From assembly GCF_041261205.1 (NCBI RefSeq), contig NZ_JBGCCH010000003.1, forward strand, positions 558,001-622,000: DNA of 64,000 nt. Reading direction: 5' to 3'. The stretch's first letter is position 1. Every line of letters starts with the position of its first letter. Shown here piece by piece: positions 46,073 to 51,773 of the stretch. The stretch comes from Catenulispora sp. MAP5-51. Lineage in GTDB: Bacteria > Actinomycetota > Actinomycetes > Streptomycetales > Catenulisporaceae. Both the position numbers and the translations under genes were made by a program. Under the pieces are notes generated by a model. The model was not told the origin of the DNA, did no database searches, and saw only the letters and a list, made by a program, of their open reading frames with translations.

Positions 46073-46218
46073 CCCGTTCCGCAGAACGGGTGACGCCACG
46101 GCCGATCGGTTCCGCTCGTCGGCGCCGGACGCTACGGTGGTGGTCCGGCGTCACCCAAGGTCACCGACCGCCTCCTCTGTGACGTCACCGCATCGCACCA
46201 GAGGGGATGGTGATCCGC

Positions 46219-46587
46219 ATGACGGAACCCGCCTCGTCCGCGTTCGTCCCCGCGCCCGGCGGCGCGGCGTCCACCGGGCCGGCCCAGTTCGGCGCGACCC
46301 TGGACGTGATGGCGCAGGCCGCCGCGCACGTCGCCACGGTCAACGAGGAGATCGCGGCCCTGCTGGCCACCCTGCTGGCCCAGCTGGAACCGATCGCCTC
46401 CACCTGGAAGGGCGCCGCCTCGGGCGCCTTCCAGAACCTGCACCAGCGCTGGAACGCCGACGCCCGCAAGCTCAACGCCGCGCTCGGCGGCATCGCCGAG
46501 TCCCTGTCCGGCACCCACCGCCGCTACTCGGCGGCCGAGGAGTCGAACACCACCGCCGTCAACCGCGTCGCCGGCCTGATCGGCTGA
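46219..46587 (+). CDS. WXG100-family protein (EsxB-like)
   Basis: A 122-residue helical-hairpin protein with the turn motif STWKGAASGAF (W-x-G) at the centre, the mark of WXG100 proteins. These form heterodimers or homodimers secreted by ESX/type VII systems. ATG 46219 is preferred to ATG 46207, whose ribosome site would be too close. The second esx gene follows after 14 bases with GGGAGGAA. Confidence 0.87.
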   Translation: MTEPASSAFVPAPGGAASTGPAQFGATLDVMAQAAAHVATVNEEIAALLATLLAQLEPIASTWKGAASGAFQNLHQRWNADARKLNAALGGIAESLSGTHRRYSAAEESNTTAVNRVAGLIG

Positions 46588-46601
46588 GGGAGGAACCGCC
46601 C

Positions 46602-46898
46602 ATGGGCTACGGAGGCGAACTGCTCGTCCACGCCGAGACGCTGTCCTCGGCGTCGCAGAATGTGGCGTCGGCGCACAACGAGCTGAACAGCAAGCTGCAC
46701 GACCTGCGCACCCTGCTGCAGCCGCTGACCCAGACCTGGAGCGGCCAGGCGGCCGCGGACTACCAGGAGCGGCAGCGGCAGTGGGACCAGGCGCAGGCGG
46801 ACCTGAACGAGGTCCTGCAGCAGATCGGGAAGGTCCTGGAGGTCGCCCAGCAGCAGTACGGCGACGCCGAGCGGGCGAACATCGACGTGTGGGGCTGA
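46602..46898 (+). CDS. WXG100-family protein (EsxA-like)
   Basis: A 98-residue partner of the previous gene with the turn TWSGQAAADYQ and long helices rich in Gln/Ala. No EccC, EccD or other ESX core gene is visible in the window, so the pair is probably served by a secretion system encoded elsewhere. A terminator follows at 46903. Confidence 0.9.
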   Translation: MGYGGELLVHAETLSSASQNVASAHNELNSKLHDLRTLLQPLTQTWSGQAAADYQERQRQWDQAQADLNEVLQQIGKVLEVAQQQYGDAERANIDVWG

Positions 46899-46902
46899 GC
46901 CG

Positions 46903-46926
46903 GCCGGTCCGCATCGCGGGACCGGC
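46903..46926 (+). terminator. Hairpin after the WXG100 operon
   Basis: An 8-bp stem (ggccggtcc-type arm 46903-46910 with 46919-46926) immediately follows the second esx gene. It separates the esx operon from the attenuated chorismate mutase unit. Confidence 0.6.
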
Positions 46927-46956
46927 TGGACCGCGCGCCGGACACCGTGGCACCAT
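46927..46956 (+). promoter_or_regulatory. Candidate promoter of the chorismate mutase leader
   Basis: TGGACC (46927-46932), an 18-base spacer and CACCAT (46951-46956). A start about 7 bases downstream would fall on the leader ATG at 46963, giving a leaderless leader peptide. This would explain the lack of a ribosome site. Confidence 0.4.
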
Positions 46957-46962
46957 GACGGC

Positions 46963-47028
46963 ATGCTCGCCAACCGCCGATTTTTCTATGGCTACGGACC
47001 AGGGTCCCTAGCCATCGTCGGCTGCTGA
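46963..47028 (+). CDS. Leader peptide with Phe-Phe-Tyr-Gly-Tyr (attenuator)
   Basis: A 21-codon frame: MLANRRFFYGYGPGSLAIVG plus Cys, stop TGA 47026-47028. Three consecutive aromatic codons (ttt ttc tat) and a fourth (tac) within five codons sit at 46981-46995, in the left arm of hairpin 1:2. The aromatic codons match the pathway of the next gene, chorismate mutase. No Shine-Dalgarno is visible; leaderless translation is proposed. An overlapping frame from ATG 46955 has no such enrichment. Confidence 0.72.
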   Translation: MLANRRFFYGYGPGSLAIVGC

Positions 47029-47085
47029 GCAGAACAAGCCAACGAGCGCCTCGGACCCCTTCCGGTCCGGGGCGCTCGCTTTTTG
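46976..47085 (+). promoter_or_regulatory. Ribosome-mediated transcription attenuator
   Basis: Three exclusive helices are visible. 1:2 pairs gccga (46976-46980) with tcggc (47018-47022), atggct (46988-46993) with agccat (47010-47015) and ggacc with ggtcc inside. 2:3 pairs 47002-47022 with 47038-47058 in one unbroken register (15 of 21 pairs, including gggtcc-ggaccc, tcgt-acga and ggc-gcc). 3:4 is the terminator 47043-47078 plus U-tract. A ribosome stalled at the Phe/Tyr codons covers arm 1, frees arm 2 and prevents termination. Confidence 0.75.
47043..47085 (+). terminator. Attenuator terminator before chorismate mutase
   Basis: A 15-bp stem (cgagcgcctcggacc with ggtccggggcgctcg, one T-G wobble) with a 6-nt loop, followed by a run of T (47080-47084). 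It is 56 bases upstream of the chorismate mutase ATG. Confidence 0.9.
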
Positions 47086-47140
47086 GCGGGGGCCGCCGGG
47101 CCGGTCGGAGCCCGGGTGCGAGCCCCGAGGAGCCCCGCCC

Positions 47141-47491
47141 ATGACTGCCAGCGCCAGCGCCACCGCCGAACCGACCTCCCCCGACGCCGCCTCCGACTCT
47201 GTCCCGCCCGGCTCTGTCCAGCCCGATTCTGTCTCGCCGGGCCAGCCGACCCCGGCCGGCGTCCGCACCGGCCGCGCCCAGATCGACGACCTGGACGCCC
47301 GGATCCTGGCCCTGATCACCGAACGCGTCAGCACCGCCGCCGACATCCAGGCCGCGCGCATCGCCGAGGGCGGCCGCCGCCTGGACCTCAAGCGCGAGAC
47401 GGAGATCATCGCCCGCTACCGGACCGCGCTGGGCCGTCCCGGCGTGACCGTCGCGATGGCGGTCCTGGAGCTGTGCCGGGGGCGCGTCTGA
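47141..47491 (+). CDS. Chorismate mutase (AroQ class)
   Basis: Converts chorismate to prephenate, the branch point to Phe and Tyr. The 116-residue protein has an unstructured Ser/Pro/Ala N-terminus of about 42 residues, with small direct repeats in the DNA. The all-helical AroQ domain then begins GRAQIDDLDARILALITERV, with the active-site Arg, Lys and Asp/Glu candidates RAQID, AARIAEGGRRLDLKRE. Its expression appears to be controlled by the aromatic leader attenuator just upstream. Confidence 0.9.
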   Translation: MTASASATAEPTSPDAASDSVPPGSVQPDSVSPGQPTPAGVRTGRAQIDDLDARILALITERVSTAADIQAARIAEGGRRLDLKRETEIIARYRTALGRPGVTVAMAVLELCRGRV

Positions 47492-49054: not shown

Positions 49055-50989
49055 CTACGTCCCGAGCCCCCGTAGCTCAGGGGATAGAGCACCGCCCTCC
49101 GGAGGCGGGTGCGTAGGTTCGAATCCTACCGGGGGCACGCTGCAGACCGGCCCGGTTGAATCTTCAACTAAGCCGGTCGTTTCTTTTCCCGAACTGATGC
49201 GGATTGCCTGGTCAGCCAGGTTCCGAGCGATCCCCAGAGCCTCGAAGAACACCGTCGCGCTGACCTTGACGCTCCTGGTCTCGAAGTCGTAGTGGATCTC
49301 CAGGCGGAAGACGTCGTAGAGCCGCCGTTGTAGTTCTTCCGGCAGTTTCGAGACGTCGATCTCCCCGAACGGGAGGGTGTCGAGTAGGTTGGGGTTCTCT
49401 TGCTCCGAGACCGTCTTTTCGACGGCCTTGAGTTGTTCCTGGAGTGCACGTTTCTCCGCCCTGACCTCGGCGATGCGGGACTGGATGTCCCGAACGAACT
49501 CGTCGTCGACTTCGTCGGCGATCTCCAGAGACCGCATCAGCTTTCGGCGACGATTCTCCCGATCTGAGATCTGCTGTTGGATAGCGGTGAGGCGCGCGGC
49601 TCGCTCGGTCTGGGCTGTGGACTCGCCGGCGCCGAGGGCTTCCGCGGCGAGGAGGAAACGGTCCGAACCTAGGATCCGCAGCGCGAAGAACTTGCTGACG
49701 ATCGATTGGAGCGCGTCCTCCCGGATCAGAGCCACAGATCGGTGGGGTGCGTCGACGCGGCTCTTCTTTGGTGCGCAGGCGTAGTAGTGCGTAGTTCGCC
49801 GCACTCGGCCGTTCATGCGAAGCCCACACTTGGAGCACCACACAAAAGATCGAAACGGGTAGACCTGTGTGGCGTGGGGAAGCGCGCTGTTGGCTCCAGG
49901 CGCTTCTCTGACTCGTTCCCGGCGTTGTGCTGCGCCGACCGACCGAAGGTACGTATCGACCGAAACGATTGCCGGATGGGTCGGCTCCGGGGACCACACC
50001 CAGTCCGAGGCTGCGTTGACCCGCCCTCCTGATTTCGTCGCACGCCGATTCCAGACCATGTAGCCGGTGTACTTCGGGTTGTGAAGGATGTCGCGGACCG
50101 CGGACGAGGTCCAGTAGCCCTTTGCGCGGGCCGGATCCGGCGGAACAGGTGGCGGGTTGAGCGTGAGATCGCTATTGAGCTGTTCGGCGATGACCTCGTA
50201 CCCCATGGCCAGCGTGACGCGCCATTGGTAGATCTTTGCGACGATGGGAGCGCGCACGCGGTCGAGGGCGAGCCGGGTCTTGGTCTTGCCCTCCGCTCGC
50301 CTGGCGGGCACTGGATGCGGGATCCGCTCTGCGCGGTAGCCATAGGGCGGGATGCCGACGTTGAATCCCTGCTCGGTGTGCTGTTCGAAGCCGCCCCAGG
50401 CCTTCTCGAGCATGTCCAGCACGTACCACTCGGCGACGCCTTGTTTTACGCGGCGTGTGAGGATCTGTGTCGCTTTGTTCCCCCGGCGGCCGGTGAGGAT
50501 GATCGGCTCGTCAGCGGCCAGCAAGACAATGCCGGCACGCTCCAAGCGATGCTCGATCAAAGTGCCGTAGTAGGTCCGCCGTGCGATGCGATCGATCGAC
50601 TCGCAGATCACCCCGTCGAACTGGGCGTTGCCGGACTCGGCCGCTTCCAGGAGGTCGGCGATTCCCCCGTCGCGGCGGACTGGGATGTCGAATGCCTCGT
50701 GCGCGCGGGAGCGACCGCGAAGCGCCAGGTCTTTGCGGCCTGATTCGATGTCGTAGTAGTGCGCGACGATCACGACACCGTCAGGCAGTGCGTTCTCGCA
50801 GGTCCGGAGTTGGCGGGGGATGGAGATGGTCGGATCCTGCTGATCCTCGGTCGAGGTTCGCGCCAACAGGGCCAGCCGAAGGGGTCCGGTGTCGGGCTTG
50901 CCGTTCGACCTTGACCGAGCCGGTCTCAGGCCGGCGGTTGCTTCAGACGGATGCGGAAATCGTCCGGGCGAGTTTGGGTTGCCACCCAT
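49055..50989 (-). CDS. Large serine recombinase (element integrase)
   Basis: A 644-residue site-specific recombinase. ATG 50989 has a strong AGGAGGTG ribosome site; the frame is open further upstream but covers other genes. The N-terminal resolvase domain starts LRLALLARTSTEDQQDP (catalytic Ser in RTSTEDQ), and VICESIDRIARR is near 125. The recombinase domain (GIPPYGYRAERI to WNRRATKSGGR) follows, then a zinc ribbon WCSKCGLRM...YYACAP, then a coiled coil of about 100 residues. The final ~27 residues are encoded by the antisense of the entire tRNA-Arg gene (PPVGFEPTHPPPEGGALSPE) and end at TAG 49055. In the excised circle the C-terminus would differ. Confidence 0.93.
   Translation of the reverse strand: MGGNPNSPGRFPHPSEATAGLRPARSRSNGKPDTGPLRLALLARTSTEDQQDPTISIPRQLRTCENALPDGVVIVAHYYDIESGRKDLALRGRSRAHEAFDIPVRRDGGIADLLEAAESGNAQFDGVICESIDRIARRTYYGTLIEHRLERAGIVLLAADEPIILTGRRGNKATQILTRRVKQGVAEWYVLDMLEKAWGGFEQHTEQGFNVGIPPYGYRAERIPHPVPARRAEGKTKTRLALDRVRAPIVAKIYQWRVTLAMGYEVIAEQLNSDLTLNPPPVPPDPARAKGYWTSSAVRDILHNPKYTGYMVWNRRATKSGGRVNAASDWVWSPEPTHPAIVSVDTYLRSVGAAQRRERVREAPGANSALPHATQVYPFRSFVWCSKCGLRMNGRVRRTTHYYACAPKKSRVDAPHRSVALIREDALQSIVSKFFALRILGSDRFLLAAEALGAGESTAQTERAARLTAIQQQISDRENRRRKLMRSLEIADEVDDEFVRDIQSRIAEVRAEKRALQEQLKAVEKTVSEQENPNLLDTLPFGEIDVSKLPEELQRRLYDVFRLEIHYDFETRSVKVSATVFFEALGIARNLADQAIRISSGKETTGLVEDSTGPVCSVPPVGFEPTHPPPEGGALSPELRGLGT
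49066..49137 (+). tRNA. tRNA-Arg (anticodon CCG), element attachment site
   Basis: A 72-base cloverleaf: acceptor gcccccg/cgggggc, D arm gctc/gagc, anticodon stem ccgcc/ggcgg with loop ctccgga (anticodon CCG), T stem gtagg/cctac with loop ttcgaat, and discriminator A. CCA is not encoded. It is complete and functional-looking although the integrase gene runs through it on the other strand. Its 3' part is the likely attachment core. Confidence 0.95.
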
Positions 50990-51123
50990 CGAGCCACCTC
51001 CTGAACAATGCGGATCTGCTGGGCTCGAAGCGAGTCCGCAGCTTCTCCTGTCTCGCTCTTGACCTCGTAATAGACGACTGGGTCGTCTGCTCGGGAAAAG
51101 TTGGATCGATCGTAAGGCGGCAT
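50926..51123 (-). CDS. Small protein between methyltransferase and integrase
   Basis: A 65-residue acidic/Arg protein beginning MPPYDRSNFSRADDPVVYYE, with one amphipathic helix (SLRAQQIRIVQEVARWVA). Its ATG 51123 overlaps the methyltransferase stop (ATGA) and its 3' end overlaps the integrase start by 64 bases, so all three genes are translated as a unit. It could be an integrase accessory such as a directionality factor. No HTH is obvious. Confidence 0.7.
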   Translation of the reverse strand: MPPYDRSNFSRADDPVVYYEVKSETGEAADSLRAQQIRIVQEVARWVATQTRPDDFRIRLKQPPA

Positions 51124-51773
51124 CAGGCGCGCGGGTCCTCGCATGCCCCTGCTTTTCCACTTGCGGGTACTGAATCGCAGATTTTGTAAACAGAGAATGG
51201 CGCTTCAGCAGTGGATGTGGTAGTGACAGCAGCGAACCCCGCACCAAGGGCTGATTCGTGGGCCATTTCATCGAGGTCGAATCGGCGGCCGTCGTGCCTG
51301 ACCGGCACGGTGATGACGACGAGGTGTCCACCAGGCCGCAGCAGCTCGCGGCACTGCCTGAAGACAACCGTGAATCCGGTGGCCAGATCGTCGAGGTCTC
51401 CGCACACCGTCTCCGGATCGTTGACGGAACGGGCTGTGCCATTCTGAGGCGAGGCGATCACTAGCGCTACACGGCCTTTGACATCGGGGCCGACCAGCTG
51501 GCTGACCTTGAACGGGTCGCCATGGACAGCGACCGCGTACCCGCGGCTCATTGAGCTACCCGTCGCTGCTTCGATCCGCCGCTGCGCCATCTCAGCCCAG
51601 TACTTCTGGTGCTCGACGCCGATCGCCAACCGGTCAGCCTCGATGGCTGCCACCAAAGTGTAGCCAGCGCCGCACATCGGGTCGATGATCAGATCGCCGG
51701 GACCTGTGAAATCGGCGATCGCACGGTGCGCGTACTCGTGTAGAGACCAGGGGGAGCGGCGGTTGTGGGCCAT
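51123..51773 (-). CDS. DNA methyltransferase-like protein with an altered catalytic motif
   Basis: A 216-residue SAM-dependent methyltransferase fold related to N4/N6 DNA methylases. SAM motif I is DLIIDPMCGAGYT near 25-37, and the N-terminal HEYAHRAIADFTGPGD is typical of this group. Motif IV, normally (D/N/S)PP(Y/W), reads ASPQNG, so catalysis is doubtful. The start is ATG 51773 with AAGGAGG upstream; the longer reading to 52055 crosses the promoter region. It is common cargo next to integrases in actinomycete elements. The three-gene unit methylase, small gene, integrase is transcribed leftwards. Confidence 0.82.
   Translation of the reverse strand: MAHNRRSPWSLHEYAHRAIADFTGPGDLIIDPMCGAGYTLVAAIEADRLAIGVEHQKYWAEMAQRRIEAATGSSMSRGYAVAVHGDPFKVSQLVGPDVKGRVALVIASPQNGTARSVNDPETVCGDLDDLATGFTVVFRQCRELLRPGGHLVVITVPVRHDGRRFDLDEMAHESALGAGFAAVTTTSTAEAPFSVYKICDSVPASGKAGACEDPRA

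Follow-up and report, generated by a model that had tools for sequence, protein, structure and literature searches.

Chorismate mutase makes the common precursor of phenylalanine and tyrosine and marks the point where their synthesis leaves the shared aromatic pathway. The stretch of 64,000 nucleotides analyzed here (the window), from a Catenulispora genome of 10.9 Mb, carries a chorismate mutase gene preceded by a short reading frame with clustered aromatic codons and by several potential RNA hairpins, which raises the question of whether and how the supply of the two amino acids sets expression of this gene. We consider it highly likely that the region acts as a ribosome-mediated transcription attenuator, through which the amount of charged Phe and Tyr tRNA determines how strongly chorismate mutase is expressed.

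The gene lies at 47141–47491 on the forward strand, as do all elements of the attenuator given below. Its product matches Pfam CM_2 (1.9e-9), the NCBIfam equivalog NF005894 (96.7 bits at a cut-off of 73) and PDB entry 2qbv (2e-11), the intracellular M. tuberculosis enzyme Rv0948c, and is therefore assigned as an AroQ-delta chorismate mutase. The sequence GAGGAG at 47127–47132 is its Shine-Dalgarno element, an assignment made in 11 of 13 Catenulisporaceae loci. The gene stands alone, as the likely gene that follows it runs in the opposite direction, and it is not the sole chorismate mutase-like gene there, given a second, canonical CM_2 gene in the same genome (G000:C27:98920-99153, locus L199, 83.8 bits). 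The type II DAHP synthase is encoded on a different contig from the window. No aromatic leader was noticed at the prephenate dehydratase, the DAHP synthase or the second CM_2 gene, loci L198 and L199 having been scanned in the wrong frame or strand. Upstream of the attenuator lie a WXG100 (ESX-like) gene (46207–46587) and a similar-sized gene with no Pfam match (46601–46898), the latter conserved beside chorismate mutase in several Catenulispora. Elsewhere in the window, the 3' end of a large serine recombinase ORF (49055–51442, reverse strand) overlaps a tRNA-Arg(ccg) gene on the opposite strand (49066–49138, forward), and because of this overlap we regard the ORF as probably part of an integrated mobile element attached at tRNA-Arg.

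The leader peptide ORF MLANRRFFYGYGPGSLAIVGC occupies 46963–47028 and comprises 21 codons, from the ATG at 46963–46965 to the TGA at 47026–47028. Phe-Phe-Tyr-Gly-Tyr at codons 7–11, as given in the initial annotation, can be read directly from the sequence: TTT (46981), TTC (46984), TAT (46987), GGC and TAC (46993), together spanning 46981–46995. The minimum free energy fold of 46927–47100 consists of helix 1:2 and the terminator (−86.4 kcal/mol, z −3.39, none of 200 shuffles being as low), and thus contains both the 1:2 helix that had been drawn at 46976–47022 and the 15-bp terminator with U-tract. In this fold, segment 1 (46987–47001) is the 5' arm of hairpin 1:2 and segment 2 (47002–47022) its 3' arm, and the helix extends outward with a CCGAT side pairing to a ATCGTCGG side. 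Terminator hairpin 3:4 (47043–47078) has 15 bp, with arms at 47043–47057 and 47064–47078 and a loop of 6, and is followed by the U-tract CTTTTT (47079–47084); a terminator scan of 46800–47200 found this hairpin as its one terminator-like site, with 0.2 expected. Segment 2 also provides the 5' arm of the antiterminator, whose 3' arm is segment 3 (47038–47058), identified by fold and duplex scores and overlapping the 5' arm of the terminator. The single 2:3 register is also where it had been placed: pairing 47002–47022 with 47038–47058 gives 15 standard pairs of 21 and is the minimum free energy fold (−24.6 kcal/mol) when a ribosome occupies the Tyr codon and the 3' arm of the terminator is absent. 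Its statistical support is weaker than that for 1:2.

We suppose that the leader is translated without a Shine-Dalgarno element. A −10 hexamer, CACCAT (46951–46956), ends 6 nt before the leader ATG, with a possible, weak −35 element, CTGGAC, at an inferred position (46926–46931) 19 nt before it; a consensus scan of the region found no sigma-70 promoter. Among the 117 leaders described below, 116 have a hexamer [TCG]A...T ending 5–8 nt before an in-frame start codon, a figure favored by our choosing, in leaders with several possible starts, the one with a −10 box. The spacing is 6 nt in 74 leaders and 7 nt in 36 (110 together), with CATACT, CATGCT and CACACT as the most frequent hexamers, and 11.6% of all starts in the same regions have such a hexamer at 6–7 nt. 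The profile of leaders with a single possible start is unaffected by this choice and, where enough upstream sequence is available (n = 38), shows A at −11 in 76% and T at −7 in 79%. This placement of the −10 box leaves no space for a Shine-Dalgarno element before the start, and because of it the leader is probably translated leaderless, as had been suggested, from an RNA beginning at or beside its ATG, which in the window would put transcript initiation at or near 46963.

These parts would combine into a switch as follows. RNA synthesis would begin at the leader ATG or right beside it, giving a leaderless RNA on which a ribosome would load. With phenylalanine and tyrosine plentiful, the ribosome would reach the stop codon and mask segment 2, leaving terminator 3:4 to form; were no ribosome to start, hairpin 1:2 would form and the terminator would form as well. 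With either amino acid scarce, the ribosome would stall on the TTT/TTC/TAT/TAC cluster and cover segment 1 (46987–47001), upon which segment 2 would pair with segment 3, polymerase would read on into chorismate mutase and the gene would be derepressed.

Conservation of the leader was assessed at 142 distinct chorismate mutase loci, assembled from class-wide searches and fetched loci after removal of duplicates. We counted ORFs of 9–60 codons that contain F.{0,1}YG, FY[QPAEG] or FYYG and lie 60–420 nt upstream of the chorismate mutase core; this motif was defined after the first loci had been seen, so that the count is descriptive, and the controls use the identical motif. An aromatic leader ORF precedes the AroQ-delta (Rv0948c family) gene at 117 of the 142 loci. 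The same count gives 1 for the 142 reverse complements and averages 1.2 per 142 (maximum 4) over 20 dinucleotide-shuffled sets. The aromatic codons are thus conserved in relatives, as the initial annotation had demanded of its reading, and far beyond the genus: the leader occurs in 13 GTDB families of the class Actinomycetes (f1, f2, f3, f6, f14, f16, f20, f23, f33, f37, f39, f48 and f50). By our own assignment, f2 is Streptomycetaceae (gene similarity being among the grounds) and genus g13 of f6 is Mycobacterium, the g13 enzyme being nearly identical to Rv0948c. All 13 Catenulisporaceae genomes that have the gene carry the leader and a strong hairpin; locus L018, in which a longer chorismate mutase N-terminus placed the leader beyond the scan range, was counted by eye. 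An order-wide search with the exact pattern CGATTTNNCTATGGC recovered the leader in Catenulisporaceae and in a single other family; it is too strict for Streptomyces, as the leaders there use TTTACCTATGGC, and its four Streptomycetaceae matches looked like chance. Also in Streptomycetaceae, a frame CGATTTGCCTATGGC (RRFAYG) lies near position 1500 of locus L037, on the reverse strand, with an SsgA-like gene about 110 nt downstream, and is probably a chance occurrence. In 120 genomes from across the phylum, seven matches to AroQ-delta chorismate mutase were obtained, all in the class Actinomycetes.

In a midpoint-rooted protein tree of the enzyme (77 columns, many forks open), leaders occur on either side of the root. 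Loci without one include a single clade of 11 rows in other genera of f6, which we take to be nocardial- or corynebacterial-like and which contains a 2.3-Mb Corynebacterium-like genome (L173), as well as four second chorismate mutase copies in f20 and two in f2. Decayed leaders precede the gene at L140, L148, L149 and L153, all in the mycobacterial-like genus g13; that of L140, CGATTCATCTACGGG, is accompanied by no clear terminator. The decay suggests that some mycobacterial-like species lost attenuation recently, and control appears dispensable in these four species and the one clade, where the leader is decayed or absent. The pattern is most simply read as descent from an ancestral leader, with one main loss and scattered later ones.

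The geometry of the leaders is constrained at one end. The last Tyr codon is followed by the stop after 10–13 codons in 107 of 117 leaders, while anything from 6 to 50 codons separates the start from the last Tyr, as expected if what matters is where the ribosome sits when it is on the control codons or on the stop codon. Of 31 diverse representatives, 30 have hairpin 1:2 starting immediately downstream of the Phe/Tyr codons. For a covariation count we excluded the sole exception, L059, and aligned the other 30 by sequence only with MAFFT; RNAalifold on the gapped alignment A3 returned no structure, and the stated structure was counted instead. The pairs of 1:2 are formed in 84.2% of cells, versus 36.6–55.8% with the partners slid, and both sides have changed in 28 cells versus 11.8 in shuffles; one pair is GC in 15 sequences and CG in 10, and the next position shows six standard pair types. 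Covariation of 1:2, which had been put forward as a test of the attenuator, is therefore seen between families. A covariance model of this hairpin (R1) has the leader as its top match in the window (E 0.0006), whereas genome-wide it gives 28 matches up to E 10, with aromatic codons in none of the six inspected, unspecific because the model is too short. With the leader and hairpin kept across so many families, a shortage of phenylalanine or tyrosine is very probably sensed by a stalled ribosome.

The choice among synonymous codons is skewed. In the aromatic cluster of the 117 leaders TTT:TTC is 125:28 and TAT:TAC is 90:62, compared with 1:27 and 0:100 in the chorismate mutase cores (Fisher test, shared ancestry ignored, p 8e-16 for Phe and 3e-27 for Tyr), and the likely genes of the 64-kb window give 5:320 and 25:238. 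A or T is the last base in 22% of non-aromatic leader codons. We infer from these counts that slow, wobble-decoded codons have been selected for, with a need for unpaired A/U-rich RNA ahead of the hairpin as an alternative cause of the bias.

To model the switch, the ribosome-free RNA was folded up to the terminator loop, with the 3' arm still untranscribed. For the window, the probability that the 5' arm of the terminator is sequestered is 0.68 with a ribosome at Tyr, 0.04 without a ribosome and 0.00 with a ribosome at the stop, and sequestration is higher in the stalled than in the ribosome-free state in 13 of 13 Catenulisporaceae. Over 20 diverse representatives outside f20 the mean occupancies are 0.67, 0.37 and 0.12 for the same three states; the stalled value exceeds that with segment 2 shuffled in 18 of 20 (p 2e-4) and that without a ribosome in 15 of 20 (p 0.02). 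As full-length equilibrium folds favor the terminator in every ribosome state, the switch must be kinetic, like that of known attenuators. The 2:3 duplex itself scores z of about −1.7 in Catenulisporaceae, −1.0 in Streptomyces and −0.5 in mycobacteria, and native 2:3 partners pair slightly better than swapped and modestly better than shuffled ones. Hairpins following the leader have a median of −28.2 kcal/mol, from a picker that mis-picks a few loci, versus −11.8 kcal/mol in control upstream regions. Several Catenulispora relatives have weak U-tracts (CCGTTGG).

Taken together, the class-wide codon conservation, the covariation of 1:2 and the folding of the stalled state support the layout of ribosome-mediated attenuation that had been claimed for this locus, and other accounts of the same parts can be weighed against them. 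The same sensor could act, at least in some families, on another output, either translational by masking of the Shine-Dalgarno element or Rho-dependent. The case for this comes from f20, where leader and 1:2 are kept while there is neither a U-tract terminator nor an antiterminator signal, so that the stalled-ribosome model fails, and where the chorismate mutase Shine-Dalgarno GAAAGG sits inside a possible GGGCCT...AGGCCC hairpin; loci of this kind without a U-tract are L055, L057, L060–L063, L065, L066, L069 and others. However, the computed accessibility of the Shine-Dalgarno element does not differ between ribosome states in f20 (0.51, 0.54, 0.51), and accessibility was dropped as the f20 output; the window and its relatives have the 15-bp terminator, and there the element is likewise equally accessible in all states (0.39, 0.38, 0.41). 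We thus regard a different output as improbable.

That F(x)YG is conserved between families could also be taken to indicate a nascent-chain arrest peptide of the TnaC or ErmL kind, sensing a small molecule through F-x-Y-G rather than tRNA charging. The residues flanking the motif vary by family, however, and do so even within Streptomyces by natural frameshift: in the Streptomyces-like loci L078, L110, L111 and L128 a 1-nt insertion within the loop of 1:2 changes the frame after TyrGly and turns a GCHGRAA-like C-terminus into a RLPWSCC-like one. Because these four insertions rewrite the peptide and keep the RNA, and with the GG at the start of hairpin 1:2 accounting for the Gly of the motif and the synonymous TTT/TAT bias indicating decoding rather than amino acid sequence, we judge an arrest peptide to be very unlikely. 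Less credible still, to the point of being nearly negligible, is the idea that the terminator serves a transcript from the WXG100 region, where a gene ends just upstream at 46898, and that the short ORF is fortuitous, for the ORF, its codons, the −10 box and the hairpin stay with chorismate mutase despite other upstream genes, for example a divergent UvrD-like sequence in f6.

Returning to attenuation by a stalled ribosome, a wider evolutionary scheme, to which we would give an even chance, has an ancestral leaderless Phe/Tyr leader with rare, wobble-decoded UUU and UAU codons traveling with the AroQ-delta chorismate mutase since early Actinomycetes, with intrinsic termination as its output in Catenulispora, Streptomyces and mycobacteria and, in f20, a different output that may be translational. 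AroQ-delta enzymes are under allosteric control through DAHP synthase (reviewed in PMC11802643); the attenuator would add a layer of expression control, apparently missed in well-studied Streptomyces and mycobacteria, at a step that supplies precursors for many natural products. Since use of the rarest Phe codon is conserved, the leaders form a clean natural test case for the tuning of attenuation by synonymous codons, and the leader losses and output changes between families are natural experiments.

As far as the searchable literature and Rfam go, the initial annotation was right that such control is not known for a stand-alone chorismate mutase in actinobacteria. No leader before chorismate mutase was found in the openly accessible literature; Rfam, including its Phe leader, gave no relevant match in the window up to E 10 and none at the gathering cut-off in 8 loci of other families. 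A reannotation of S. lividans by RNA-seq lists eight attenuators, none for Phe/Tyr or chorismate mutase (PMC8079986), and Seliverstov 2005 (PMC1262725) describes trp, trpS, leuS, ilvB, cys and leuA elements in actinobacteria, with no element for Phe/Tyr or chorismate mutase named in the abstract. The Streptomyces leaders trpL, ilvL, leuL, thrL, alaL and metL are mostly leaderless leader peptides with hairpins, and in this resemble the present, probably leaderless one. The leaderless poly-Cys ORFs of mycobacteria, described as acting by translation attenuation (Canestrari 2020, as cited in PMC13236596), are likewise actinobacterial and amino-acid-sensing and differ in the amino acid and the genes. 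The uORFC-13-1 motif before Acholeplasma aroF, with a run of Phe codons and a terminator (PMC8632094), shares the uORF, the terminator and the aromatic pathway, yet belongs to another phylum and another gene and has a ribosome binding site.

Set against the trpL/pheL type, the locus has a short leader ORF with codons for the amino acids of the pathway (FFYGY in the window), mutually exclusive 1:2, 2:3 and 3:4 helices, with weak support for 2:3 at the level of sequence, a U-tract terminator before the gene, which f20 lacks, and a stop codon placed for masking of segment 2, with the 5' arm of the terminator free when the ribosome is there. The enterobacterial pheL/pheA system likewise has a Phe-rich leader and a terminator/antiterminator pair ahead of a gene with chorismate mutase activity; it differs in that pheA encodes a fused chorismate mutase-prephenate dehydratase and its leader has a Shine-Dalgarno element. 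The aroR leader of C. glutamicum is leaderless, as the present one probably is. According to Neshat et al. 2014, as relayed in PMC11802643, its Phe-Tyr-Phe peptide controls aroF in response to Phe limitation. On the present reading, both are actinobacterial attenuators with aromatic leaders before a gene of the aromatic pathway, but aroR controls the DAHP synthase aroF while the present leader precedes chorismate mutase, and the Corynebacterium-like L173 sits in the leader-free clade with no leader before its chorismate mutase gene. The class of mechanism is known from pheL, trpL and C. glutamicum aroR, whereas the family before chorismate mutase, as judged from Rfam and the searched papers, is apparently undescribed and would be set apart by its probably leaderless translation and its conserved rare codons.
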